DNA from: Pseudomonadota bacterium | Lineage (GTDB): Bacteria; Pseudomonadota; Alphaproteobacteria; Acetobacterales; Acetobacteraceae | NCBI GenBank assembly: GCA_021845835.1 | Contig: JAJZVE010000122.1 | Span: 1 to 9,909, forward strand | Length of the DNA: 9,909 nucleotides | Direction of reading: 5' to 3' | Shown here: in pieces, positions 1 through 9,909 of the stretch | Numbering within the stretch: the stretch's first letter is position 1 | Layout of the letters: every line of letters starts with the position of its first letter | The notes under the pieces: model-generated | Seen by the model: only the letters and a program-made list of their open reading frames with translations | What the model was told of the DNA's origin: nothing | Databases searched by the model: none | Translations under genes and position numbers: made by a program

Positions 1-475
1 CACGCGGCAGGTGCCGAAGATAGGCAACAACCTGCCAAAGCTGCTGATCCGGCATGTTCCAGGCGGGCATGCCGGTGTTCCGGATGCCGTTGCGGATATA
101 GTAAAAGAGTTCGCCATCCGTCAGCGACATAATGCTGATCGCCCGCAGGGCGGGGGGGCGCGGGTACTCGCCGGAACCGATTTCGGTTCGGCCGCTTCCG
201 TCGTAACCGTGGCAGACCTCGCATTTCTGCTTGAATATTTCCCGGCCGGCGGAGACATAAGCGGGATCAGATCCAAGCGGATTGGCACGCACTTTGTCCT
301 GCTGCGGGACGCTGGCGCGCAGCAGCCACGTCGCGATCGCGACTTCCACTGCCGGCGGTTCTCTCCGCGCACTGGAGATTCCGGGAACGACGGACCGATA
401 GAGAAACACCGCCACCACGGCCACGACGACGAAGAACGCAAGCAGCGCACTTGCGATACGCACCTTACGGAACAT
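1..475 (-). CDS. membrane-anchored monoheme cytochrome c, 3' end cut by window edge
   Basis: The frame is open from an ATG at 475 through the left edge, giving 158 residues without a stop. Residues 8-26 form a hydrophobic segment after a basic start (MFRKVR), so the protein is probably anchored by an N-terminal helix with the heme domain in the periplasm. The heme-binding motif CEVCH lies at residues 85-89. A probable distal methionine ligand is Met136 in the NTGMPAW motif, typical of class I cytochromes (Cytochrome_CBB3/cyt c6-like). The end reads QLWQVVAYLRHLP, the usual C-terminal helix of this fold, so little is missing. It lies downstream of the DUF1259 gene on the same strand and probably in its operon. 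The electron partner is unknown. No good ribosome binding site precedes the ATG; upstream in-frame codons stay open to a TGA, and a GGAG sits 5 nt before an in-frame ATT ten codons upstream. Confidence 0.88.
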   Translation of the reverse strand, partial: MFRKVRIASALLAFFVVVAVVAVFLYRSVVPGISSARREPPAVEVAIATWLLRASVPQQDKVRANPLGSDPAYVSAGREIFKQKCEVCHGYDGSGRTEIGSGEYPRPPALRAISIMSLTDGELFYYIRNGIRNTGMPAWNMPDQQLWQVVAYLRHLPR

Positions 476-581
476 GGTGGTCAGGCACAGCGGATTTCGA
501 ATGGCCGCTCCACATCATTTCCGGCGTACACGCCGGTCGCGCGCGTCCAGTCAATCCGCCGGCCGCAATGACAACGCTCAT
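465..581 (-). CDS. possible 38-residue small ORF between DUF1259 gene and cytochrome c
   Basis: An ATG at 581 follows the DUF1259 stop by two bases and is preceded by AAGGA at a 6-nt spacing, a better Shine-Dalgarno than the cytochrome gene has. The ORF starts MSVVIAAGG and runs to a TAA that lies 8-11 nt inside the cytochrome gene. Its product resembles no family I recognise. It could be a translational-coupling leader that brings ribosomes to the poorly signalled cytochrome start, or it may be chance. Low confidence as a protein gene. Confidence 0.22.
   Translation of the reverse strand: MSVVIAAGGLTGRARPACTPEMMWSGHSKSAVPDHHVP
521..536. repeat. perfect 7-bp inverted repeat (hairpin) between DUF1259 and cytochrome genes
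   Basis: The arms CCGGCGT and ACGCCGG are separated by two bases. It lies in the 108-bp gap between the two minus-strand genes, within the small ORF if that is real. No T-run follows on either strand, so it is not a classical intrinsic terminator. It could be an mRNA processing or stability stem within the operon. Confidence 0.35.
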
Positions 582-583
582 CG

Positions 584-1576
584 TCAGTCCTTCGCGACAT
601 TGACGTGGTTGAGGGCGGCCCGCAGGCCCTTGGCCAGTTGAACCGGATCGTCGTTGGCCCAGAAATGCACGAAGAGCATGCGAGGCTGATCGTTGAGCAT
701 ATGGTTGTGCAGCGCCGTCACCTCGATGCCGTTCCGGCGCAATGCCTGAAGCACCGGAGTGACCTCGCTGGCCAGCAGGGCGAAATCTCCGGTGATAGCC
801 GCCTTGTCGTTGGCGGTAGGTTGGAAGTTAATGGCGATCGCCGTGCCCATTGCGGGCGGCAACGTCATCCCGCCCTCGCGGATCGTGTCTGCTCTTGCGA
901 TCGCGAACTGGTAGACGCCGCTATTTGCTTTGCCCCGATAGCCCAAGACGCTGTCGATCTGTTTGGTGTCGAGAGCGAGCGGCTCGGCGCCCGCCGGTGC
1001 GCCAGCAGGGGCGCCGAAGGGGGTCTTGCTCTCCGCTGTCAAGGCTTCCCGGAGCGCCATGGCGAGCGCCACCGGGTCTCCCCGCCCGGCGACATGCATG
1101 TAAAAAGTCGGCGGCTGCGCCCGGAGCAGATGATTATGGAGGGCGGTCACAGTGATGCCGTTGGCCAGCAGGCGCGCCATAACCGGATTGACCTCGTCCT
1201 CGGTGAGAACGAGGTCTCCCATCACCATTGCGTCCGTGCCCATTGGCCTGAAGGCGAGCCAGCCGCCGAGCGCAAAAGCAGGCTTGATGGCGACACCATC
1301 CAGCGTGACGTGCAGATCGGTCCGGGGCAGCCCGTATTTATGCACGTCCCCCGGCTGATCGGCCCCCGCTTTACCAAGAGCCGCATCAACCTTGGCCCAA
1401 TCGGTGTCAGCGGCCAGTGCCGGTCCGGTGACGGTCAGAAGCGCACCCATGACAGCGCCGACGAGGGCGAGGAGCAGGCCAGATTTCCTTGCGGCCGCGT
1501 TCCGCATGGACCGCAGGGCCGGGTGATGGCCGGCGATGCGGCCGTTGTCCGGACGCTGGTGGGTGGCTCCCGTCAC
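584..1576 (-). CDS. DUF1259 (LppY/LpqO family) exported protein with two homologous halves
   Basis: A 330-residue product of the DUF1259 family, whose biochemical role is unknown; relatives occur in metal and chromate gene neighbourhoods. Two related halves are visible: TALHNH at residues 144-149 and again at 287-292, each followed by a QP...(F)xxHxxxxxDPVxLAxxLRxAL segment. A hydrophobic run (about 33-50) ending GPALAAD is a Sec-type signal sequence, so the mature protein is probably periplasmic. I chose the GTG start because AGGAGGAG lies 7 nt before it; Met24 (codon at 1507) would give a more ordinary signal peptide but has no ribosome binding site. It diverges from chrB across 95 bp and shares the dyads there. 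The cytochrome gene follows about 110 bp downstream on the same strand, probably co-transcribed. Confidence 0.85.
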   Translation of the reverse strand: MTGATHQRPDNGRIAGHHPALRSMRNAAARKSGLLLALVGAVMGALLTVTGPALAADTDWAKVDAALGKAGADQPGDVHKYGLPRTDLHVTLDGVAIKPAFALGGWLAFRPMGTDAMVMGDLVLTEDEVNPVMARLLANGITVTALHNHLLRAQPPTFYMHVAGRGDPVALAMALREALTAESKTPFGAPAGAPAGAEPLALDTKQIDSVLGYRGKANSGVYQFAIARADTIREGGMTLPPAMGTAIAINFQPTANDKAAITGDFALLASEVTPVLQALRRNGIEVTALHNHMLNDQPRMLFVHFWANDDPVQLAKGLRAALNHVNVAKD

Positions 1577-1583
1577 GGCATGT

Positions 1584-1591
1584 CTCCTCCT
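1584..1591 (-). promoter_or_regulatory. strong ribosome binding site deciding the GTG start of the DUF1259 gene
   Basis: On the minus strand AGGAGGAG is followed by ACATGCC and then the GTG codon. The ATG inside this spacer would be only 2 nt from the site and opens ATG-CCG-TGA, a two-codon frame, so it is not the start of the main gene. Confidence 0.6.
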
Positions 1592-1624
1592 GATGCCGGG
1601 TCCAGCCTATGATGACCAGCATTG

Positions 1625-1644
1625 AGATACAAGAGTATCTTGTA
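1625..1644. promoter_or_regulatory. nested dyads in the chrB / DUF1259 divergent promoter region, candidate operator
   Basis: Two overlapping perfect inverted repeats share these bases. TACAAGA-GTA-TCTTGTA occupies 1628-1644 (7-bp arms). AGATAC-AAGA-GTATCT occupies 1625-1640 (6-bp arms). The site sits 27 bp before the chrB start and 48 bp before the DUF1259 start, in locally AT-richer DNA. ChrB of Ochrobactrum tritici is a chromate-responsive regulator of its own operon, so autoregulation through this site is a natural inference. No textbook -35/-10 pair is clear in either direction. Confidence 0.45.
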
Positions 1645-1671
1645 CCCCCTATCATGTGATATGGACATTTC

Positions 1672-2676
1672 ATGAGCAAGGCCGTGACGGAGAGACTCCC
1701 GGAGTCCACACCGTGGCTGCTGCTGATCCATCAGCTCCCGGCGAAGCCCGCCTATCTGCGGGTGAAGGTCTGGCGGCGGCTCCAGGCGCTGGGCGCCGTG
1801 ACCGTGAAGAATTCGGTCTATGCGCTGCCGGCAAGCGAGCAGACGCGCGAAGATTTTGCGTGGGTCCTGAAAGAGATCGGCGAGGGCGGCGGCGAGGGGA
1901 TGATTTGCGAGGCCCGCATGGTGGACGGTCTCTCCGACCAGGACGTGCGCGACCTCTTCAACACGGCGCGGGATGCCGACTACGAGGTGATTGCGAAGGG
2001 CGCGCGGGAGCTGGGCGAAAGGCTGACCGGCGAGACCGAGGCGAGCGCCCGCGCTGACGCGAACGCCAGGCTCGTGCGGCTGAAGGCGGAAGCGGCGCGG
2101 GTGATGGAGGTCGATTTCTTCGGCGCGGATGGCCGCGAAGCGGTGGCTGGCCTGCTCGGAGCGCTGGACGCGCAATTGCGGGAGGAGACGGGTGCGGGAG
2201 ACACGAAGGCAAGCGATAACCAGGACTCTGCCAGCGGCGCCGGCATGAAGAACCGCGTCTGGGTAACGCGCCAAGGGGTGCATGTGGACAGGATCGCCTC
2301 GGCCTGGCTCATTCGGCGCTTCATTGATCCCGAGGCCCAGTTCAAGTGCGTCGCCGCCAAGGGCTATGTGCCGGAACCTGGGGAGCTGCGCTTCGACATG
2401 TTCGAAGCGGAGTTCACCCACGAAGGCGACCGTTGCACATTCGAGGTGCTGTGTGCGCGGATGGATCTGGCGGACCCGGCCCTCGTGCCGATCGGCGAGA
2501 TCGTCCATGACATCGACCTGAAGGACGGAAAATTCGGCCGGGAGGAAGCCAGCGGCATCGCGCACCTCCTTGAAGGCATTCGGGCAGCGCACGACGACGA
2601 GCATCGGCTGCTGCGCGGCGTAGCGATGTTTGATGATCTCTACGAATACTTCCGCAAGGGGGCTATTCTGCGATGA
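1672..2676 (+). CDS. chrB: chromate resistance protein ChrB
   Basis: A 334-residue protein with the two-part ChrB architecture. An N-terminal domain (about residues 12-180), with the LLIHQLPAKPAYLRVKVWRR opening and KNSVYALP motif, is the regulator-like ChrB_N part. The C-terminal Chrome_Resist domain starts near Met192 with VWVTRQGVHVDRIASAWLI and contains RRFIDPEA and HDIDLKDGKFG. In studied chr operons ChrB represses or senses chromate and supports the ChrA efflux pump; it acts in the cytoplasm. Length is normal and both ends look intact. The start is the first ATG after the dyads, with a weak GGA 6 nt upstream. Oddity: no chrA follows. The stop is only 22 bp from the end of a decayed mercury reductase gene on the other strand, so the rest of the operon has been lost or replaced. 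Confidence 0.92.
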   Translation: MSKAVTERLPESTPWLLLIHQLPAKPAYLRVKVWRRLQALGAVTVKNSVYALPASEQTREDFAWVLKEIGEGGGEGMICEARMVDGLSDQDVRDLFNTARDADYEVIAKGARELGERLTGETEASARADANARLVRLKAEAARVMEVDFFGADGREAVAGLLGALDAQLREETGAGDTKASDNQDSASGAGMKNRVWVTRQGVHVDRIASAWLIRRFIDPEAQFKCVAAKGYVPEPGELRFDMFEAEFTHEGDRCTFEVLCARMDLADPALVPIGEIVHDIDLKDGKFGREEASGIAHLLEGIRAAHDDEHRLLRGVAMFDDLYEYFRKGAILR

Positions 2677-2698
2677 GCAGCCATTCGGGTATCGTGCT

Positions 2699-3483
2699 TC
2701 AGAGCATGTAGCCGAGATCCGAGGCGCCCGTCGGGTAGGCGAACAGGGTCGTCTTCAGGTTTTCGACGGTCAGGCTGTGCCGGATCGCAAGCGCGAAGAC
2801 GTTGATGACCTCGTCCGCGTGCGGGCCGACGAGATGGGCGCCCAGGATGCGATCCGTTTCCTCCTCTACAAGGGTCTTGAAGCCATAGACGCGCTCGGCC
2901 AGACGCCGGGCGCTGAACCACTCGGGCACTTTCTCTGCTGTCGCGCGCACGCGCAGCCCGCATGCGCGCGCCTCCGCCTCACTCAGTCCAGCCGCGGCGA
3001 TCGGCGGCACCGTGAAGGAGCGCCCAGCACGCCGCGGTAGTCGGGCCGGTGCCGGTTGCTGTCCAGGAGGTTGCCCGCGATCACTTTGGCATCATGGCTG
3101 GAGACCGGAGTCAGCGGCGGCCCGCTGCCTGTGGGATCGCCCGCAGCATAGACGAGTGGGTTCGTCACATTCTGGATGAACTCGTTGAGCGCCAGCCGTC
3201 CCTTGGCGCGCTGAATTCCGGCCGCCGGCAGATCGAGTGTGCTTCCAGGTCCAGGGCGCGGCCAGCGGCATGCACGACCGGATCTGCCGCCACGGTCTGC
3301 TCACGGCCATCGGCAACGGCATGCACCAGAAGACCGTCAGTGGCTTTCTCGACCCGCTTCACTGCCGCGCCGGTGCGCACGTCGATTCCAAGCGACCGTG
3401 CAGCCCGCGTGCCGCATCCGCGCGCTCGCGACCTGCGCCGCCGTGCCGGAACCGATGACGACGAGGTTGTATGCTGCGGTCAT
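2699..3483 (-). pseudogene. decayed mercuric-reductase-like / dihydrolipoyl-dehydrogenase-family FAD oxidoreductase
   Basis: Reading leftward from an ATG at 3483, the start MTAAYNLVVIGSGTAAQVAS is the FAD-binding GxGxxxA motif of class I pyridine nucleotide-disulfide oxidoreductases. About 33 residues in, the sequence jumps directly to the middle of the protein (GIDVRTGAAVKRVEKATDG, in another frame). The redox-active CxxxxC region and most of the FAD and NAD(P) domains are therefore deleted. Further frame changes occur near 3200 (before NEFIQNVTNPLVYAAGDPTG) and near 3018 (before FTVPPIAAAGLSEAEA). The dimerisation domain is then intact to GASDLGYML and a TGA at 2699. Relatives are about 450 residues; 785 nt remain here. 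The ATG overlaps the stop of the upstream GDCCVxC gene (ATGA), so this was the last gene of the mer operon. It lacks the C-terminal cysteine pair of classical MerA and belongs to the MerA-like group found with such operons. Confidence 0.88.
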
Positions 3484-3752
3484 GACGCGCCTCCGCCAGG
3501 CATGACGGCGCAGCAGCCGAGCTTGCCATTCGCCTGGACAGACGGGCATGGCACGTCACCGTAGGAGCAGAACACGCAGCAGTCGCCTAGCTTCGGCCGG
3601 AGTAGCACGCCGCAGCCGGTGCAGTTGTAGAAGAACTGGCAGGCATCGGTCGGCATCGTCTCGGCCTTCGCTGCGCCACAGACCGGGCAGGTGATCGTGG
3701 AAACCTGCACGAAACACTGTCGTGCAGGTTCGTTCTGGGCAGGCTGGGTCAC
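3480..3752 (-). CDS. GDCCVxC domain-containing cysteine-rich protein of mer operons
   Basis: A 90-residue protein with many cysteines: CPVC at 22-25, a CTGC pair at 44-47, the signature GDCCVFC at 56-62, Cys69 and a CC at 80-81. The signature matches the GDCCVxC domain family, which is known from mercury operons and includes selenocysteine versions; its exact job is not established, and metal or Hg(II) binding is an inference from the thiols. No signal peptide is visible, so it is probably cytoplasmic. The GTG start overlaps the merP stop by 4 bp (GTGA), and the stop overlaps the start of the reductase pseudogene by 4 bp (ATGA), indicating translational coupling. It appears intact although the reductase next to it is broken. 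Confidence 0.82.
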   Translation of the reverse strand: MTQPAQNEPARQCFVQVSTITCPVCGAAKAETMPTDACQFFYNCTGCGVLLRPKLGDCCVFCSYGDVPCPSVQANGKLGCCAVMPGGGAS

Positions 3753-4024
3753 TTCAGGATCTCCGAAGGATACCCGGCGTCGGTAGTGGTCCGAACCAAG
3801 GCAGCGATGTCGATCTTCGCATCATCGAAAGTGACGGTCGCGGTCTTGTCCGCATAGGAGACCGTCGCGGCAGACACGCCGGGAGCGCCGAGCAGAGCGT
3901 GCCGGACGATGTAGGGGCAAGACGCGCAGGTCATATTGAAGACCTTCAATGTCTCCGTCCGCGTGGCCGCGAACGCCGTGGCGGACAGCACGGATAGGGC
4001 GAGGGAGATGGCAATGGATCGCAT
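3749..4024 (-). CDS. merP: periplasmic mercury-binding protein MerP
   Basis: A 91-residue protein: a Sec signal peptide (residues 1-19, ending AFA-A) followed by a heavy-metal-associated (HMA) ferredoxin-like domain. The Hg(II)-binding motif NMTCASC has Cys33 and Cys36. MerP scavenges Hg(II) in the periplasm and passes it to MerT. GAGGAG lies 9 nt before the ATG, and merT ends 13 nt upstream, so the two are co-transcribed. Its stop overlaps the GTG start of the next gene. Length and motif are normal for the family. Confidence 0.93.
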   Translation of the reverse strand: MRSIAISLALSVLSATAFAATRTETLKVFNMTCASCPYIVRHALLGAPGVSAATVSYADKTATVTFDDAKIDIAALVRTTTDAGYPSEILK

Positions 4025-4037
4025 GGTGGCTTGCTCC

Positions 4038-4451
4038 TCATGCTCCTGCGACGATGCGGAAGACCCATGGGAACGCCATCCCCGTGATCGCCAGGACGGA
4101 AGCGACCCATAGCGCGGCCTTGGTCAAACGGGCTGCTCGGGGATCAGCGCAGGGCGTGCCGGGTCTGCACGCAGCCGTCCGAAGGCGGCGACGAACCCTG
4201 AGGACTCCCAACCCGATCATGGCCACCGCCACAGCAAAAAACACCGGCTGGAAGGGTTCCAGCACGGTCAGGTTGCCGATCCAGGCGCGGCCGATGCCAA
4301 GCGAGAACAGCGCAAAGGGGATCAGGCAGCAGGAGGACGTCGCCAGGGCCGCAAGCAGGCTGCCCGAGGAGAGCGCGGAATCCGTCGCGCGCCTGAGGCG
4401 GCTGCGCTCCGCCGCTGATGCTGCACGGTCGCGCAGGACGGTCTCGCCCAT
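4038..4451 (-). CDS. merT: mercuric ion transporter MerT
   Basis: A 137-residue inner-membrane protein. Residues 28-54 form the first helix with the Cys41-Cys42 pair in SSCCLIPF that accepts Hg(II) from MerP. A second helix (about 67-84) follows, then a cytoplasmic loop with Cys95 and Cys101, which pass Hg(II) inward, then a third helix (about 109-131). The order matches MerT of Gram-negative operons, with a slightly long basic N-terminus. The start has AAGGAG 7 nt upstream. It is the first gene of the minus-strand operon driven by the MerR-type promoter just upstream. Confidence 0.92.
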   Translation of the reverse strand: MGETVLRDRAASAAERSRLRRATDSALSSGSLLAALATSSCCLIPFALFSLGIGRAWIGNLTVLEPFQPVFFAVAVAMIGLGVLRVRRRLRTAACRPGTPCADPRAARLTKAALWVASVLAITGMAFPWVFRIVAGA

Positions 4452-4481
4452 GAGCTCTCTCCTTTGCTCTCCTGCCCGACG

Positions 4482-4512
4482 AGGCTACAGTCTGTAGCCG
4501 CTACAGACGCAA
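4482..4512 (-). promoter_or_regulatory. MerR-type promoter and operator for merT, also in the merR leader
   Basis: Reading toward merT, a -35 element TTGCGT (4512-4507) and a -10 element TAGCCT (4487-4482) are separated by 19 bp, the over-long spacing that MerR regulators correct by DNA distortion. The spacer holds a perfect 19-bp dyad at 4490-4508 with arms GTCTGTAGC and GCTACAGAC. A third half-site GGCTACAG (4483-4490) forms a second overlapping dyad with 8-bp arms and covers the -10 element. The half-sites are CTGTAGC-type, not the GTAC-type of Tn501/Tn21 mer operators. The same stretch lies 13-43 bp before the merR start, fitting autoregulation. Confidence 0.82.
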
Positions 4513-4524
4513 GGGCTTTCTTCG

Positions 4525-4959
4525 ATGTCCTCGGCCGGACCGCGTTCAGGCGCCATCGCGATTGGAGAACTCGCGCAGCGGACCGGCTGCAACATCGAGA
4601 CCATCCGCTATTATGAGCGGATCGGCCTGCTGCCGATGCCTGGACGGAAGGGACGCTTCCGCCGTTATGGCGGTGAGGACGTGAAGCGGCTGGCCTTCGT
4701 GCGCCGGGCGCGCGAGCTTGGCTTCACGCTCAATGAGGTGCGCGCCCTGTTGAGCCTGGCCGCCGGAAATGGCGATGCCTGCGGCGAGGTGCGCGCGATC
4801 GCCGCCGCCCATCTGGCCGACGTGCGGGCAAAGATTGCCGATCTTCGGACGATGGAAGGCGTGCTCGCGGATGCGGTGCGACAGTGCGATGCGGGCGAAG
4901 CGCCAGGATGCCCCTTGATCGACGTTCTCGCATCGGATCCGCCGCCAGCGGCGCGGTGA
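4525..4959 (+). CDS. merR: MerR-family mercury-responsive transcription regulator
   Basis: A 144-residue protein with the MerR winged helix-turn-helix (IGELAQRTGCNIETIRYYERIGLL, residues 13-36, then RRY at 46-48) and a long dimerisation helix (about 84-120). Cys86, Cys121 and Cys129 correspond to the three Hg(II) ligands of MerR; the 86-121 interval (35) equals that of Tn501 MerR, while the last interval is 8 rather than 9. The tail GCPLIDVL is typical. It would bind the divergent operator, repress merT without Hg(II) and activate it when Hg(II) is bound. AAGGG lies 9 nt before the ATG. The neighbouring merT and merP support mercury as the inducer; a related metal inducer is the main alternative. 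Confidence 0.92.
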   Translation: MSSAGPRSGAIAIGELAQRTGCNIETIRYYERIGLLPMPGRKGRFRRYGGEDVKRLAFVRRARELGFTLNEVRALLSLAAGNGDACGEVRAIAAAHLADVRAKIADLRTMEGVLADAVRQCDAGEAPGCPLIDVLASDPPPAAR

Positions 4960-4987
4960 CGCGCCTGGCGTTCGGCATCGATTATCG

Positions 4988-5005
4988 GCCTCTCACCGAT
5001 CGATT
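4988..5005 (+). terminator. weak hairpin downstream of merR, doubtful terminator
   Basis: A 5-bp stem (ATCGG / CCGAT) with a 7-nt loop lies 28 bp after the merR stop and is followed only by CGATTT. The short stem and the three T residues make it a poor intrinsic terminator. The first arm of the mini-element begins immediately after it. Confidence 0.2.
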
Positions 5006-5006
5006 T

Positions 5007-5119
5007 GGAGAGCATCAGGATCTATGGGGTGATCGGATCATACCGCTCCTCGGTGATGGCGCGAGCAAGCGCACATGGACTGGGTGGTGAACAGCACCTC
5101 ACAGATCCTGATGCTCTCC
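5007..5119. mobile_element. 113-bp transposase-less element with perfect 17-bp terminal inverted repeats
   Basis: GGAGAGCATCAGGATCT at 5007-5023 is repeated exactly in inverse orientation at 5103-5119. Similarity continues inward for about 8 more bases with two mismatches, so the ends are about 25 bp long. The 79 bp between the perfect arms hold no convincing gene. No target-site duplication is visible in the flanks (GATTT on the left, TAGTT on the right). The shape is that of a miniature inverted-repeat element or an insertion sequence collapsed to its two ends; a long-arm stem in RNA is an alternative reading. I cannot assign an IS family from the sequence alone. It marks the right border of the mercury block. 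Confidence 0.6.
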
Positions 5120-5218
5120 TAGTTAACGTGACAGTGCCGTCTGGTGGCTTGCCCAGGCCGCGACGGGGTGGTAGCGTCCAGAGAAAGAAATGACGATCAG
5201 TATATCTGGAGCAAGGAA

Positions 5219-5605
5219 ATGGGGGCCGTCGCATCCCCACATGCTGACTCTCTAAGCGAGCGGTCAACTGTGGTCAGCAAGGCCGTGGTTCGGGCGGCCG
5301 ATCTGCTTGGCCTGACTAACGCTGCCCTCGCACGGACGATCGGAGTATCGGAGGCGACCGCCTCCCGCCTCCGGGCCGGGACGTATGCGCTCGAGTCCGG
5401 CACCAAGCCCTACGAGCTGTCGCTGCTGGTTATCCGCCTGTTCCGCAGCCTCGACGCCGTGGTAGGCGGGGACGAGGCATCCCTGCGTTCGTGGATGGTG
5501 GCTGCGAACCGCGCGCTGGGCGGCGTGCCGCGTGACCAGGTGCAGACCGTGACCGGGCTGGTCGCCGCCGTGGATTATGTGGACGCCGCCCGCGCTCGCG
5601 TCTGA
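5219..5605 (+). CDS. Xre/MbcA/ParS-family antitoxin of a RES toxin pair
   Basis: A 128-residue protein from the chosen ATG at 5219, which has GGAG 7 nt upstream; the frame opens further left (5144), but that extension has no family features. Residues 22-54 form an Xre-like helix-turn-helix (LTNAALARTIGVSEATASRLRAG). Residues about 70-126 are the DUF2384 toxin-binding domain (SLRSWMVAANRALGGVPRDQV...). It should neutralise the RES toxin encoded next by blocking its active site, and repress the shared promoter. The stop lies 29 nt inside the toxin gene, an arrangement typical of coupled toxin-antitoxin pairs. Confidence 0.88.
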   Translation: MGAVASPHADSLSERSTVVSKAVVRAADLLGLTNAALARTIGVSEATASRLRAGTYALESGTKPYELSLLVIRLFRSLDAVVGGDEASLRSWMVAANRALGGVPRDQVQTVTGLVAAVDYVDAARARV

Positions 5606-6326
5606 AGCGAGGGCCTGGTCGGGCGACCTGTGGCGGGTCGTGGAAAGCCAGTCCCGCGTGGCCACCCTGAAACTGGTCGACACGCTCGACGAGCAGGCCA
5701 TTCTTGAGGCCGAGCTGGAGGGCAGCAAGCCGCTCATCCCCACCTCCTGCGCAGGTCTCGACTACCTCCTGGCAACGCCCTTCCGGTATGCTCCCTACCG
5801 CCACGGCAGCCGGTTCCGCCGTGCCCGCCAGACGGAGGGGTGCTTCTATGCGGCCGAGCGGGTCGAGACCGCGGTGGCCGAAGAGGCCTTCTACCGGCTG
5901 CTGTTCTTCCTCGATGCCCCGGCTGCCAGACGCCCGGCGAATGCGCAGGAGCGCAGCGCATTTCGGGTACCGGCCGGAACCGAGCACGCCATCGACCTGA
6001 CCATACCGCCGCTCGACTGCGATGCAGCGCTCTGGGGTCACCTGACCGACTATGGTCCCTGCCAGGCGCTGGCCGACGCCGCGCGTGCAGCCGGGGTCGA
6101 GGCAATTCGCTATCCCTCGGTGCGCGATCCGGGTGGCGGCGCCAACTTCGCCCTGCTCTCGCCGGCGGCCTTCCGGGCGACGCGGCCGGAGCTTTCAGAG
6201 ACCTGGCACGTCTTTCTGCGCGAGGCTTCGGTGCAGGCAGTTCGGGAGATGCCCCGGCGGATGCTGGAGATTCCCTTTTCTGCCTGGGCGGCGGACCCGC
6301 GCGTGCCGGAGCGGTTGCCGCGCTGA
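5577..6326 (+). CDS. RES-domain toxin (NAD+-degrading type)
   Basis: A 249-residue protein of the RES family, named for conserved Arg, Glu and Ser. Visible landmarks are the arginine cluster in YRHGSRFRR (around 74-82), the segment GCFYAAERVETAVAEEAFYR with Glu102/103, and Ser181 in RYPSVRDPGGGANFALLSP. Studied relatives (MbcT, ParT, Xre-RES pairs) remove or transfer the ADP-ribose part of NAD+ and stop growth unless the antitoxin is present. The ATG overlaps the antitoxin by 29 nt, and the first 15 residues may be dispensable. On a mobile element the pair probably works as a maintenance module. Length and motifs suggest it is intact. Confidence 0.87.
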   Translation: MWTPPALASEARAWSGDLWRVVESQSRVATLKLVDTLDEQAILEAELEGSKPLIPTSCAGLDYLLATPFRYAPYRHGSRFRRARQTEGCFYAAERVETAVAEEAFYRLLFFLDAPAARRPANAQERSAFRVPAGTEHAIDLTIPPLDCDAALWGHLTDYGPCQALADAARAAGVEAIRYPSVRDPGGGANFALLSPAAFRATRPELSETWHVFLREASVQAVREMPRRMLEIPFSAWAADPRVPERLPR

Positions 6327-6406
6327 TCCCGAAAGCCGGGAAAGGCCGAGGGTGGGGATCGTCAGCCGCTCAATTCCGGCCATGGCGATCCGGGAGAAGC
6401 GGCCGC

Positions 6407-6865
6407 TCACGGGATGGCGCAGTTGGCGGAGGCTCGCAGATCCTCGAGATGGTATTCGTAGACGATGGCGATGTCGTCGGCGGAGAGGCCGGGCGAGCGC
6501 GTGCAGTAGCGTTGCCAGGCCAGCATGATCGCCGCCGCCTCATTCGAGGTGAGGTGCGCGGGGAGGGCAACCGTCGCTGGGGCGGATAAGGTCGTCGTGC
6601 CAGCAAGCGAAGCCGCGTCTGCGAACTCCGGCTGCACCAGCACCGGTTCGATGCCGGCGGTGGCGAGGACGGCGCCGGCCGGGCGGGTGGGCAGAAACGC
6701 GACATGCGCCGCGAGCAGCGGGGGCGGTGCGGGCGGTGGTCCCGGCGCGGCGACGGCCGGTTGCGGCGCTGCGGTACTGCCGATGACCGCGTCCCTGAAT
6801 TGGCCGCAGGCGACGGTGAGGCCGGCGGCGCAGAGGGCAGCGAAGAGCCGGGCAGTGCGATCCAT
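6407..6865 (-). CDS. small proline-rich candidate lipoprotein of unknown function
   Basis: A 152-residue product that I do not recognise. The start at 6865 is chosen over an in-frame ATG at 6889 because GAGG lies 5 nt before it. Residues 1-19 look like a signal sequence leading to Cys20 (LTVAC); this is a lipobox-like site, but Thr rather than Leu at position -3 makes it weak. A proline/alanine-rich linker spans 34-49 (PQP...PGPPPAPPP). The C-terminal half ends with a predicted helical segment (NEAAAIMLAWQRYC...) and two cysteines. It converges on the toxin gene and diverges from the transfer operon across about 670 bp, so it may belong to the transfer module, for example as a surface or entry-exclusion protein; that is a guess from location. 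Confidence 0.55.
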   Translation of the reverse strand: MDRTARLFAALCAAGLTVACGQFRDAVIGSTAAPQPAVAAPGPPPAPPPLLAAHVAFLPTRPAGAVLATAGIEPVLVQPEFADAASLAGTTTLSAPATVALPAHLTSNEAAAIMLAWQRYCTRSPGLSADDIAIVYEYHLEDLRASANCAIP

Positions 6866-6908
6866 GTCCCCCTCGCGGAGCATCGGCACAATGATAGCCG
6901 CCCGGCAG

Positions 6909-6942
6909 CGCCAGCGGGCACGCGCAGCGCTGGCGATCCTGC
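6909..6942. repeat. 8-bp-arm inverted repeat immediately followed by ATCCTGC
   Basis: The arms CGCCAGCG (6909-6916) and CGCTGGCG (6928-6935) flank an 11-base loop. ATCCTGC follows at once (6936-6942). In IncP-type origins of transfer an inverted repeat lies just before a nick site with an ATCCTG core, so this resembles one in layout. The base before the core is G rather than a pyrimidine, and no relaxase gene is in the window to support the assignment. Confidence 0.35.
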
Positions 6943-6980
6943 GAGGGCATGCGCCCAGGTGTTGTGTTGTTCGGCCGTCC

Positions 6981-7089
6981 GCAAACCCGCGCGAATCTGC
7001 CGGTTAATCCGTTATCCGCGCGGAATGCCGCGCATCTCTGCGAGGCCTGACCAGATGGTCAACATGAACACGCCGCCCGTACGAAAGCG
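6981..7089 (+). repeat. 109-bp diverged direct repeat, copy 1
   Basis: This segment aligns without a single gap to 7150-7258; by hand count 77 of 109 positions are identical. Identity is concentrated in blocks: GCAAACC, GCGCGAA, GTTAAT, CGCGCA, AGGCCTGACC, ATGAACACG and ACGAAAGCG. The stretches between blocks differ almost completely but keep their length. Copy 1 contains TTATCCGCG, which resembles a DnaA box; copy 2 does not. Confidence 0.7.
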
Positions 7090-7103
7090 AGGGGCCATCG
7101 GCA

Positions 7104-7129
7104 ATCCTGCGCAGGGCAGGATCCCTGCC
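7104..7129. repeat. nested palindrome cluster with ATCCTGC on both strands
   Basis: ATCCTGC (7104-7110) and its inverse GCAGGAT (7116-7122) flank GCAGG. CCTGCGCAGG (7106-7115) is itself a 10-bp palindrome, and GGCAGG-ATC-CCTGCC (7115-7129) forms another. The cluster lies between the two 109-bp repeats. No T-run follows, so a terminator is unlikely; a protein-binding or transfer-origin site is possible. Confidence 0.45.
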
Positions 7130-7149
7130 ATTGTAATGCTTTGCCCCCG

Positions 7150-7258
7150 GCAAACCGGCGCGAAACCGCGAGTTAATTCGTCATCAATTCACAATAACGC
7201 GCACATCTGCAAGGCCTGACCGTGCAGCCAGGATGAACACGAATTCAGAACGAAAGCG
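7150..7258 (+). repeat. 109-bp diverged direct repeat, copy 2
   Basis: Gap-free partner of 6981-7089, starting 169 bp further on. Both copies end with ATG-AAC-ACG, eight variable bases and ACGAAAGCG, so each would open a short peptide beginning MNT and reaching Arg-Lys-Arg at residues 7-9 (frames 7064-7219 in copy 1 and 7232-7306 in copy 2). No good ribosome binding site precedes either ATG. Confidence 0.7.
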
Positions 7259-7539
7259 CGCCAGAACGCCAGAAGAGGCCTCCGAGTCGGCCAGCACTGG
7301 CGCGTAAAACGGAGCCGGCGGTTGCTCGAAAGCGAGTGCATTCAACGTTTTGAGTTGGTATCTTAAGACACGAACCGAAGACGCATGCGGTCCAGTCGGG
7401 CCACTTGCATCGCTGCGTGACGCGATATTTCCGATCAGAAAGAATGCGGGTTCGGATGTTTCAGTCTCCAAACTTCCACTTGTCATATCGCTTTTTGGTG
7501 AATTAGCGTTGCAGCATACGTACGGTGACTGTCACGGAC

Positions 7540-8130
7540 ATGGCGCGTCGGGACCGTTGGTGGCGTGTAGTCTGGATGGTGATGTTGGCGATCCCGCTGG
7601 CATCGTCTGGAGCTTTTGCGGCGCCACGCGCGGACCTCGCCGGCACGGTATGGGACGCCGCGGCGCGCAGTGCCGACGTTGCCGATCCTCTGCTGCTCTA
7701 CGCCATCGCCCTGGTGGAGAGCGGCTATCTCGCGGACGGCAACGGCTATCGCCCGTATCCGTGGACCGTCCGGCTGCCGGGCGGGACGGTACTTCCCGGG
7801 TCGGAGGCCGAGGCACGGCGCATTGTCCGCGCGCTGCCGCCCGGCACCAACGCCGATATCGGCGTGATGCAGGTGAACCTCGCGGCGCATCACGACATGG
7901 TGGTGCATGCCGAGGATCTGGTCGCGCCGGTGCAGAACATCTTCGTCGCTGCACGTATTCTGGCGGAGGCGCTGGACAGTGCGCCGCTCGACCTCGAACT
8001 CGGCATCGGACGCTATCATTCGTGGGACGAACAGCGGGCGCGGACCTATGGCAGGCGCGTGCTGGCGCTGTATCTGAGCCTCGCGCGCAGTGCGCAGGGC
8101 CGTGACGGCCTTTCAGGGCGTGCGCCATGA
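7540..8130 (+). CDS. lytic transglycosylase (Slt-like), conjugation-associated
   Basis: A 196-residue exported muramidase-like protein. A signal peptide spans about residues 1-28 (basic MARRDRWWR, hydrophobic core, cleavage near AFA-A). The SLT domain shows the catalytic Glu60 in LLLYAIALVESGYL, the GVMQVN motif (family GxMQv), NIFVAARIL and a final GRYHSWDEQRARTYGRRVLALY segment. Such enzymes open peptidoglycan locally so the transfer apparatus can assemble. The frame also allows a GTG at 7525; I prefer the ATG because the signal peptide then begins normally, although neither start has a clear ribosome binding site. Its stop overlaps the next start (ATGA). It is the first gene of the rightward transfer operon. 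Confidence 0.85.
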   Translation: MARRDRWWRVVWMVMLAIPLASSGAFAAPRADLAGTVWDAAARSADVADPLLLYAIALVESGYLADGNGYRPYPWTVRLPGGTVLPGSEAEARRIVRALPPGTNADIGVMQVNLAAHHDMVVHAEDLVAPVQNIFVAARILAEALDSAPLDLELGIGRYHSWDEQRARTYGRRVLALYLSLARSAQGRDGLSGRAP

Positions 8131-8672
8131 AAGTGCGCGTCCTGAACGAGATTTGCCTGGAAGTTCTGCGGTTCGACGTCGGCGAACTGGGGGAGGCGGA
8201 GGCGGCACATCACTTCGGCATCGCGTCCAGGACGATGCCGGCCGTTCTCGACGGTCTCGCCGACGCGGAGCGATTGCGGCGCATTGTGGCAGCCCCGTTC
8301 GCGCTGTTCGCGCCGGAGGCCGCGGCGATGCGTGAGGCGATCGGACGGGCGCCCTGGACCGGTTCCCGGTCGGGGTATCGCGCGCTGCTGCGCCTCGCAC
8401 ATTTGCTGTTCGTCGAGGCCCTGGGCACGGGCGCGGTGGGCAGGTCGTGCGTGCGGCTCGCGCTGGGTGACGAATTTGCCGCCGTCCAGGCCTTGTCGGT
8501 GAGCGGGCGGCTGCAGCTGACCGCGGCGGAAAGTCCCTGGTTCCGGATGCGTCCTGGGATCGTCACCTTGCTCACGTCGCAAGCGGCCGCCGACGGGAGC
8601 CATGGTCTGTTCATGGCCGTCGTCTCCCTGGCTGTCGAGAGTGTCGCCGATGTCGGTGCTGAACGAGCCTGA
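8127..8672 (+). CDS. FlhD-like transcription activator subunit, apparently two FlhD domains in tandem
   Basis: A 181-residue protein. Residues 6-64 follow the FlhD pattern: a helix LNEICLEVLRFDV, then AAHHFGIASRTMPAVLDGLAD, then ERLRRIVAAPFALF, matching the FRLGI...LAAL...VKLAETNQLVCHFRF region of E. coli FlhD. Residues 88-143 repeat the pattern (LRLAHLLFVEAL, CVRLALGDEFAAVQALS, LQLTAAESPWFRMRP). FlhD is normally about 115 residues and dimeric, so this looks like a covalent dimer. With the FlhC-like protein encoded next it is expected to form a master activator like AcaCD of IncC plasmids or SetCD of SXT/R391. Its ATG overlaps the transglycosylase stop by 4 bp, and its end overlaps the FlhC-like gene by 23 bp. 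The assignment rests on pattern matching by eye. Confidence 0.68.
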   Translation: MKVRVLNEICLEVLRFDVGELGEAEAAHHFGIASRTMPAVLDGLADAERLRRIVAAPFALFAPEAAAMREAIGRAPWTGSRSGYRALLRLAHLLFVEALGTGAVGRSCVRLALGDEFAAVQALSVSGRLQLTAAESPWFRMRPGIVTLLTSQAAADGSHGLFMAVVSLAVESVADVGAERA

Positions 8673-9303
8673 GGCCTATGCACATGCGGTGACGATGCTG
8701 AAGCATCGCCTGCAGATCGGGTTCGTGGCGGAGCTCACCAATCTGAGCGTGCGCCGGGTGCGGGATCTGCGGCAGGCGCTGCGGATCGAACCCAGTCAGG
8801 GTCGCAAGCGGGGTGCCGACGCGCTGCGCACGGTGCCGCTGCTGCGCCTGCAGACGTGCTTCGTGGCAACGTGCTTTTCGGTCCTGGGCATCCAGAGCCG
8901 GTCGCAGCTGATCGCCGAGCGTGGTGCGTCATTCGCGCATTTCCTTGATTTTTACTACGATTCCTGCGTCTGGGCGGCGCTGCGCCCAGGGCACCATCTA
9001 AGCGGCGACGAGGTCTATGGGCTGCTGCGACTGCACCTCCGGGACGGGCCGGTGCGGCTGCGCTGTGACGGCTGTGGTTGGCGCGGCGTGGTGCCGGAGG
9101 CGCTGCATACGGAGACGACCTGCCCGGCCTGTGCGGTCAGCGGACGCTGGTCGCGGGTGCATGAGCTCGGAAAACCCGGAATTCCTCGCGATTCTGCCAG
9201 GCCCTCGCCGGGACGGCAGGTGCGCATGACGGTAGCCTTCTCCGCGGTGACGACCCCGGAGGACGCGCATGAAGGTGATCGCATTGCCGCGCACGGTGGA
9301 TGA
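8650..9303 (+). CDS. FlhC-like (AcaC/SetC-type) zinc-binding transcription activator
   Basis: A 217-residue protein from the ATG at 8650, chosen over one at 8602 because the extra residues carry no homology-like features. The N-terminal part (about 16-45) has the FlhC helix-turn-helix-like region (RLQIGFVAELTNLSVRRVRDLRQAL after a split). The middle (about 68-110) is helical, with LQTCFVATCFSVLG. Four cysteines, CDGC at 139-142 and CPAC at 158-161, match the FlhC zinc site. About 45 residues past the zinc site look unstructured and overlap the traL start by 35 bp. FlhC contacts DNA in the FlhD-FlhC complex; here the target is presumably the transfer promoters. It sits directly between the FlhD-like gene and traL in one operon. 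Confidence 0.74.
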   Translation: MSVLNEPEAYAHAVTMLKHRLQIGFVAELTNLSVRRVRDLRQALRIEPSQGRKRGADALRTVPLLRLQTCFVATCFSVLGIQSRSQLIAERGASFAHFLDFYYDSCVWAALRPGHHLSGDEVYGLLRLHLRDGPVRLRCDGCGWRGVVPEALHTETTCPACAVSGRWSRVHELGKPGIPRDSARPSPGRQVRMTVAFSAVTTPEDAHEGDRIAAHGG

Positions 9304-9550
9304 ACCACCGTATTTCCTGCTGTGGCGGGTGGACGATTTCGTCCCCCCGGTGCTGTTCCTGGTGATTGGCATGCTGGCCGGCTCGGCGCTTGCTTTCGCG
9401 GGCATCGGCATCGCACTGAGCTTGTTCTATCGACGCTACCGCGAGGGACGGCCGGAGTTCTACGTGCTGCATGCGCTCTACTGGAGCGGCCTGTGGCCGG
9501 CGCGTGGTCACAGTTTCCCCAACCCCTATTGCCGGGTGTTCGAGCCGTGA
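9269..9550 (+). CDS. traL: type IV conjugative transfer protein TraL
   Basis: A 93-residue protein with the TraL signatures: PRTVDEPP near the start (residues 7-14), a hydrophobic stretch of one or two helices (25-53), then YREGRPEFYVLHALYW with EGRP at 59-62, and FPNP at 83-86. TraL is an inner-membrane component of F-type (MPF-F) mating-pair formation, placed in the pilus assembly complex with TraE, TraK and TraB. A good GGAGG lies 6 nt before the ATG, inside the end of the FlhC-like gene. Its stop overlaps the traE start (GTGA). Confidence 0.9.
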   Translation: MKVIALPRTVDEPPYFLLWRVDDFVPPVLFLVIGMLAGSALAFAGIGIALSLFYRRYREGRPEFYVLHALYWSGLWPARGHSFPNPYCRVFEP

Positions 9551-9909
9551 GGCTGGAGCGGCTGCTCGCGTCCTGGGAAGGGGCGCGGGCGGCGGCACGC
9601 CTGCTGGGCGTGGCAGTGCTTGGCCAGGCGGTGGCGATGATGGTGCTGGCGGCGCTGCTGTTCCGGCAGGAGCGGACGGTGGTGATGGTGCCGCCGGACA
9701 CATCCTGGCAGGCCTCGGTGAGCCGCAGCAGCGCGGACGCCGGCTACGTGCAGAGCTGGGCGTTCTATCTCGCGACGGTGCTGGGGAATGTCACGCCGGG
9801 GAATGCGGCATTCATCAGGCAGTCGCTGGGGCCGCTGCTGTGCCCGGAAGTGTATGGCGACGTGATGGTGGGGATCGAGCATGAGCTCGATCAGATCGCG
9901 CGGGAGAGC
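9547..9909 (+). CDS. traE: type IV conjugative transfer protein TraE, cut by right window edge
   Basis: A GTG at 9547 overlaps the traL stop by 4 bp, and the frame stays open for 121 codons to the window end. One N-terminal membrane helix (residues 20-39, VAVLGQAVAMMVLAALLF) is followed by RTVVMVPP and the SADAGYVQSWAFYLATVLGNVTPGNA region typical of TraE (a VirB8-like core component). The order traL-traE is that of F-type systems, so traK and traB are expected next. About two thirds of a usual 190-200 residue TraE is present. Confidence 0.87.
   Translation, partial: MRLERLLASWEGARAAARLLGVAVLGQAVAMMVLAALLFRQERTVVMVPPDTSWQASVSRSSADAGYVQSWAFYLATVLGNVTPGNAAFIRQSLGPLLCPEVYGDVMVGIEHELDQIARES

Follow-up and report, generated by a model that had tools for sequence, protein, structure and literature searches.

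A probable tandem FlhD-type activator subunit in a conjugative element of the Acetobacteraceae

AcaCD is the master switch for the transfer of IncA/C plasmids and of the islands that they mobilise (PMC4207636, PMC4605294; published work is cited throughout from the parts of each article available to us). AcaC could not be purified alone and denatures without its D partner (PMC4605294), and AcaD copurifies with it. The flagellar complex FlhD4C2 forms a ring in which DNA lies on FlhC and FlhD holds the ring, two of the four FlhD being outer and two inner; a Zn-Cys cluster is also mentioned for FlhC (PMC3510510). Here we compare these systems with a locus from an Acetobacteraceae bacterium. The window, i.e. 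the whole stretch of DNA that was analysed (9,909 nucleotides; GenBank assembly GCA_021845835.1, contig JAJZVE010000122.1, positions 1 to 9,909 of the forward strand), carries an open reading frame at 8127-8672 (+) with an ATG start, 181 codons and a stop, exactly as a first-pass annotation from the sequence alone had delimited it; we call its product D. That annotation had proposed that D is a tandem FlhD fusion within an FlhDC-type activator. Synteny and the match of its N-terminal half to SetD make it very probable, in line with that proposal, that D serves as the D subunit of an FlhDC-type activator of conjugation. The fuller reading, in which D is an AcaCD/SetCD-type subunit built of two FlhD domains that pair within one chain, also seems likely to us. 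The FlhD-type signal in the sequence is strong in the N half and modest in the C half.

The D gene and its FlhC-like partner

The D gene lies between the genes of an SLT-type transglycosylase and an FlhC-like protein (C) in a conjugative element. The order is SLT-D-C-traL-traE, each gene overlapping the next, and the SLT gene opens the chain: the SLT stop overlaps the D start (ATGA), the C gene begins within the D gene and traL shares 35 bases with the C gene. The Pfam SLT score of the transglycosylase falls just short of the cut-off. Among the 40 matches listed, this protein is 43-52% identical to plasmid SLT proteins, and the nearest tra genes are those of an alphaproteobacterial plasmid.

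We compared this order with that in 16 other loci. They were picked by hand and are no random sample: 14 came from SLT hits, in listings that showed 40 and 60 of ∼1,450 SLT records, one was reached via an FlhC-type gene and one was added for its SetD. SLT was followed by D and C in 15 of the 16, which is not a count of independent cases because several of the loci are closely related and all were hand-picked. In Pseudomonas mandelii two genes stand between SLT and C; the additional one, of 145 amino acids (aa), lies between D and C (L013:2409-2846 in our numbering of the loci) and by eye resembles the N-terminal part of FlhC without the cysteine region. The exception was Burkholderia latens, beside VirB9/VirB10-type genes, with no D or C annotated. 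Several of the SLT-D-C pairs are published or proposed activators, namely AcaCD, SetCD and those of pAQU1 and pAsa4 (PMC4542580). Among the loci opened, for which the plasmid gene tables are incomplete, a D-C pair adjoined traL only in the window and in Rhodovastum; four further traL loci had none annotated at that place. We also noted an 85-aa FlhD on an IncHI2 plasmid (L025:798-1055). The 1.9 kb displayed there include no annotated FlhC gene, and this FlhD may stand alone on a conjugative plasmid.

A close counterpart is the plasmid RHOApb of Rhodovastum atsumiense (WP_150045315, WP_150045314), in which overlapping genes stand in the same order, SLT-D-C-traL-traE, and both the N half of D and the C subunit are related to those of the window. 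The proteins differ in length: Rhodovastum D (g1) has 223 aa with an N-terminal extension as opposed to 181 aa, and Rhodovastum C (g2) has 165 aa as opposed to 217 aa. The N half of Rhodovastum D was recognised as FlhD in one of two tests, and its C half was unrecognisable.

The C protein of the window has both the four cysteines and the similarity expected of an FlhC-type protein. Its score with g2 was equalled by none of 500 shuffles, and the same held for g2 against each of SetC and the C proteins of P. mandelii, Pseudomonas psychrotolerans and Citrobacter. In direct comparisons with 10 proteins, window C matched AcaC (p 0.004), SetC (p 0.016) and P. psychrotolerans C (p 0.046), and the remaining six gave p 0.078-0.604, E. 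coli FlhC being the worst (p 0.604). All 15 aligned C proteins share the CxxC...CPxC cysteine columns, at which FlhC binds zinc. Window C had no Pfam FlhC match (E up to 10) and a sub-threshold match to DUF2857 (E 0.022). In a tree of 14 C subunits it stood beside g2 (85/82), with SetC joining the AcaC group (95/88). The branches of this tree are long and one of its 11 forks is starred. It omits the Edwardsiella, Shewanella and Vibrio rows, has two rows cut to 180 residues and tells nothing about a single origin of the fusion. Scans that detect close relatives only (pattern scans and tblastn, used for D, C and TraL) found no relatives of window C in plasmids and none of TraL in species genomes.

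The two halves of D compared with FlhD, SetD and AcaD

For SetD we used the R997 record, which we take to belong to the SXT/R391 family and which shares the SLT-D-C order. Residues 1-74 of D scored 53, 51 and 48 (Smith-Waterman) against SetD in three homologues, and none of 400 shuffles of each equalled these values. Nor did any of 350 plasmid open-frame pieces or any of 724 open-frame pieces of a plasmid of 66% GC reach them. The profile comparison agreed (hhalign P 4.3e-4, 0/100 shuffles), as did that with g1 (0/500 shuffles) and that with a combined profile of AcaD repeats, SetD and FlhD (p 0.010, semi-global test). Residues 6-63 align to SetD 11-65, which is the FlhD register. Similarity to AcaD was weak: p 0.0475 in one of three homologues, an hhalign P of 0.0024 with the AcaD repeat profile (a value that comes without a shuffle control) and p 0.128 in a local profile test.

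The C half (residues 75-181) resembled the flagellar proteins instead, best those of Cupriavidus and Burkholderia glumae. Against E. coli FlhD it gave p 0.0075-0.0225 in all three homologues, within a screen of 66 comparisons. Its mean Smith-Waterman score to seven FlhD orthologues was equalled by 2 of 1000 shuffles, by none of the 350 plasmid pieces and by 1, 0, 2, 2 and 0 of the 724 background pieces for five homologues. The alignments enter FlhD at residue 13 (residues 88-122 of D; 88-173, collinear, with Cupriavidus), again in the FlhD register, so that both halves begin early in their partners, at FlhD residue 13 and SetD residue 11. D is thus similar to known FlhD-type proteins beyond chance, with its N half to SetD and with its C half to FlhD, and judged from these alignments it probably holds two FlhD domains.

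A survey of homologue lengths, which the first-pass annotation had called for, fits this reading. The relatives of D are four, all of 181 aa and 80-99% identical (5.8 billion proteins, E up to 1); pattern scans of species-genome and viral collections and tblastn in plasmids added none. The length of 181 aa, found in all five sequences, lies outside the range of one-domain FlhD (∼100-116 aa). Flagellar FlhD is a single-domain protein (116 aa in E. coli) made as separate chains. SetD is one FlhD domain of 99 aa; the view that it is single-domain is therefore correct for the one SetD that we examined.

The same view of AcaD had to be abandoned, as AcaD of pRA1 has 202 aa and its family is tandem. 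In a repeat profile built from 14 of 29 AcaD-type proteins together with AcaD and a Vibrio D (the 15 others were left out, judged by eye as fragments, frameshifted or near-copies), the two halves aligned to each other over 70 gapless columns (hhalign P 1.6e-14) and each half matched FlhD. At the level of sequence, AcaD-family proteins demonstrably consist of two FlhD domains. A single-chain model of the family reached a predicted template modelling score (pTM) of 0.76, and a Foldseek search with it returned no match at E 0.001 or better among 126, with FlhD chains heading the list. AcaD/AcaC resembles the window in its SLT-D-C order, in a D of ∼200 aa and in a C protein with CxxC...CPxC. It differs in that no traL follows acaDC in the IncA/C loci opened, and in that its sequence similarity to D is weak and confined to the N half. 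Because AcaD and the other plasmid D proteins examined are double-length and the AcaD family has two FlhD domains, the fusion is shared. The tandem idea is sound and probably right, but D is not unique in this design, and the contrast that the first-pass annotation drew with AcaD falls away.

The tandem FlhD nature of AcaD-type proteins is the more general finding, and we did not find it in print in the literature searched. Two FlhD domains are ascribed to neither AcaD nor SgaD in the available text of PMC4207636, PMC4605294, PMC5058578, PMC4344509, PMC7826253, PMC9927553, PMC10954446, PMC10838148, PMC7423338, PMC3510510 or PMC4542580, a scope that leaves aside supplements, subscription journals and bioRxiv.

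Other double-length D proteins were less readily recognised. A second set (loci L013, L015, L016, L017 and L019) was unmatched to FlhD or SetD in most tests; in the semi-global test only two Pseudomonas N halves matched (1/200 and 0/200 shuffles). In the IncT plasmid Rts1, orf247 ('setD'), a neighbour of setC and slt, is required for transfer; it is listed as 174, which we take as residues, and without any named domain (PMC10838148). Like window D, the Rts1 protein is a double-length D without a named domain, a likeness of description and not of directly compared sequences. The D of Providencia rettgeri p06-1619-1, which we took by layout as the Rts1 type, had no match to FlhD or SetD. Finally, ICEclc has the two-gene activator BisDC, in which BisC is FlhC-like with DUF2857, the domain to which window C has its sub-threshold match. 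BisD differs from window D: the available text gives it a ParB domain and no FlhD domain (PMC7423338).

Features of the window and its other genes

The features of the gene chain and of a mercury-type gene group (3480-4959) are collected in Table 1.

Table 1. Coordinates of the gene chain around D and of the mercury-type genes in the window
Feature	Position	Strand	Basis
SLT-type lytic transglycosylase	7525..8130	+	Pfam SLT E 2.5e-4, 21 bits, cut-off 21.3
D subunit, FlhD-like, probable tandem FlhD protein, 181 aa	8127..8672	+	Open reading frame; acaD-like position beside SLT and C; half-by-half similarity
FlhD-like domain 1 (probable), residues 6-64	8142..8318	+	SetD and Rhodovastum g1 matches
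FlhD-like domain 2 (probable, weaker evidence), residues 88-173	8388..8645	+	Smith-Waterman to 7 FlhD orthologues
C subunit, FlhC-like, 217 aa	8650..9303	+	Rhodovastum g2 match
C-subunit cysteines C139, C142, C158, C161 (CxxC...CPxC)	9064..9132	+	Residue positions; alignment columns
TraL	9269..9550	+	Pfam TraL 2.1e-19; TIGR02762 4.4e-12
TraE, cut by window end	9547..9909	+	Pfam TraE 3.7e-16
GDCCVxC-similar protein	3480-3752	-	DNA match; no Pfam family
HMA/MerP-like protein	3749-4024	-	3.8e-15
MerT	4038-4451	-	1.1e-24
MerR, divergent	4525-4959	+	1.2e-21

Upstream of the SLT gene, an imperfect palindrome at 7346-7383 (overlapping 22-nt arms, 77% complementary) is a candidate operator. The region 6850-7540 holds two pairs of short direct repeats and five pairs of inverted ones; we could link none of these to an operator. 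Next to the mercury-type genes, pieces like a flavin disulfide reductase (MerA-like) were seen by eye over several frames at 2640-3550 (-), where the gene looks broken or misread. A ChrB-type chromate regulator (ChrB_C 5.8e-46) is encoded at 1672-2676 and, beside it on the opposite strand, a protein with two DUF1259 stretches at 584-1576. At 5144-6326 an Xre/MbcA/ParS-type antitoxin gene is followed by an overlapping RES-domain gene, which looks like a RES-Xre toxin-antitoxin pair.

Alternative readings and a possible D2C2 activator

Several results weigh against two FlhD domains in D. The protein has no match to the Pfam FlhD profile (PF05247) at E up to 10, and its N half does not match flagellar FlhD (p 0.443). 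Of the two segments that the first-pass annotation had described as sharing one pattern (6-64 and 88-143), both do lie in the FlhD register, but their mutual resemblance is no more than chance: 24.7% of 1000 column shuffles did as well as the best gapless diagonal (offset 61, not the one drawn in the first-pass annotation), and 99 of 100 shuffles did equally well in the hhalign comparison of half 1 with half 2 (p 0.99). On these shuffle tests we rejected the notion of an internal repeat visible in the sequence. An earlier half-versus-half hhalign P of 1.6e-5 was discarded as it arose from eight residues common to both pieces, and a global-alignment test with free ends was discarded as it gave trivial overlaps. 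With individual FlhD proteins the C half scored between 22 and 44, so that its match owes nothing to some of the orthologues; moreover, the C half gave p 0.19 with the FlhD family in hhalign and p 0.48 in the semi-global test, and had no match to SetD or AcaD. The separate profile check of the halves that had been suggested came out divided, with no Pfam or NCBIfam family for the whole of D or for either half (E up to 10) and an hhalign match for the N half (SetD), not for the C half. Structure did not help: an AlphaFold2 model of D from five similar sequences was unusable (mean predicted local distance difference test score 45.9), and an alignment of D with the AcaD family set the C half out of register and was not folded.

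As the evidence for the C half is modest and depends on the method, the N half alone might be an FlhD domain, the C half being an unrelated helical domain (e.g. a dimerisation or ligand-sensing tail) and D chains pairing through their N halves. Likewise, neither FlhD nor SetD is matched by the C halves of six other D proteins that are divergent (Rhodovastum, Citrobacter, Providencia stuartii, P. mandelii, P. psychrotolerans and P. rettgeri). We nevertheless regard this as unlikely, since the C half of window D aligns with flagellar FlhD in the expected register, the C halves of the P. psychrotolerans and P. mandelii proteins, taken as a pair, weakly match FlhD (hhalign p 0.03 and 0.01), and AcaD, in the equivalent locus position and of about the same total length, has two FlhD domains. 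It is highly improbable that D is no FlhD protein at all and that its place between SLT and C and the short similarities are coincidental. Such a view could appeal to the absence of any Pfam, NCBIfam or PDB sequence match and to the small number of close relatives, but it has to contend with an N half-SetD match beyond all shuffles and background pieces, with the synteny in the loci opened and with the FlhC-type partner that adjoins D. Two FlhD domains whose halves pair with those of other D chains would lead to larger rings or chains; this is improbable too, as the pTM of the AcaD-family single chain, which bears on D only indirectly, suggests a defined arrangement within the chain.

If D is a subunit with two FlhD domains in one chain, it would supply an outer-inner FlhD pair as a single polypeptide, and two D and two C chains would build the same ring as FlhD4C2; D2C2 would then suffice, because the pair could come from one chain. 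Whether the halves do pair in a fixed way within the chain to give D2C2 could, in our judgement, go either way. As traL and traE follow D and C in one chain of overlapping genes, the activator would be made together with the first tra proteins, and D-C acting on a promoter ahead of SLT would raise its own level, which suggests positive feedback if D-C does act there. We infer the pairing of the halves, the D2C2 make-up, the DNA site and the feedback alike. We would lean neither towards nor away from a wider proposal, in which FlhDC-type activators of conjugative plasmids would usually carry the two-FlhD fusion, across a range from IncA/C to alphaproteobacterial elements, and SetD with its one domain would be exceptional. 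The rings would be D2C2; each half would keep to an FlhD seat of its own, the N half to the outer or the inner one and the C half to the one left, and the seats could evolve apart; here the N half would be SetD-like and the C half flagellar-FlhD-like.

Should AcaD consist of two covalently joined FlhD, the master switch of IncA/C transfer could be active as D2C2 and not as D4C2. Mixed complexes, in which SgaD or AcaD works with the other's C partner, have been proposed (PMC9927553), and these would be easier to reason about with a covalent pair. The two non-equivalent FlhD seats could then be mutated singly, something that is impossible with identical FlhD supplied as separate chains. The window carries this type of regulator into a very divergent element.
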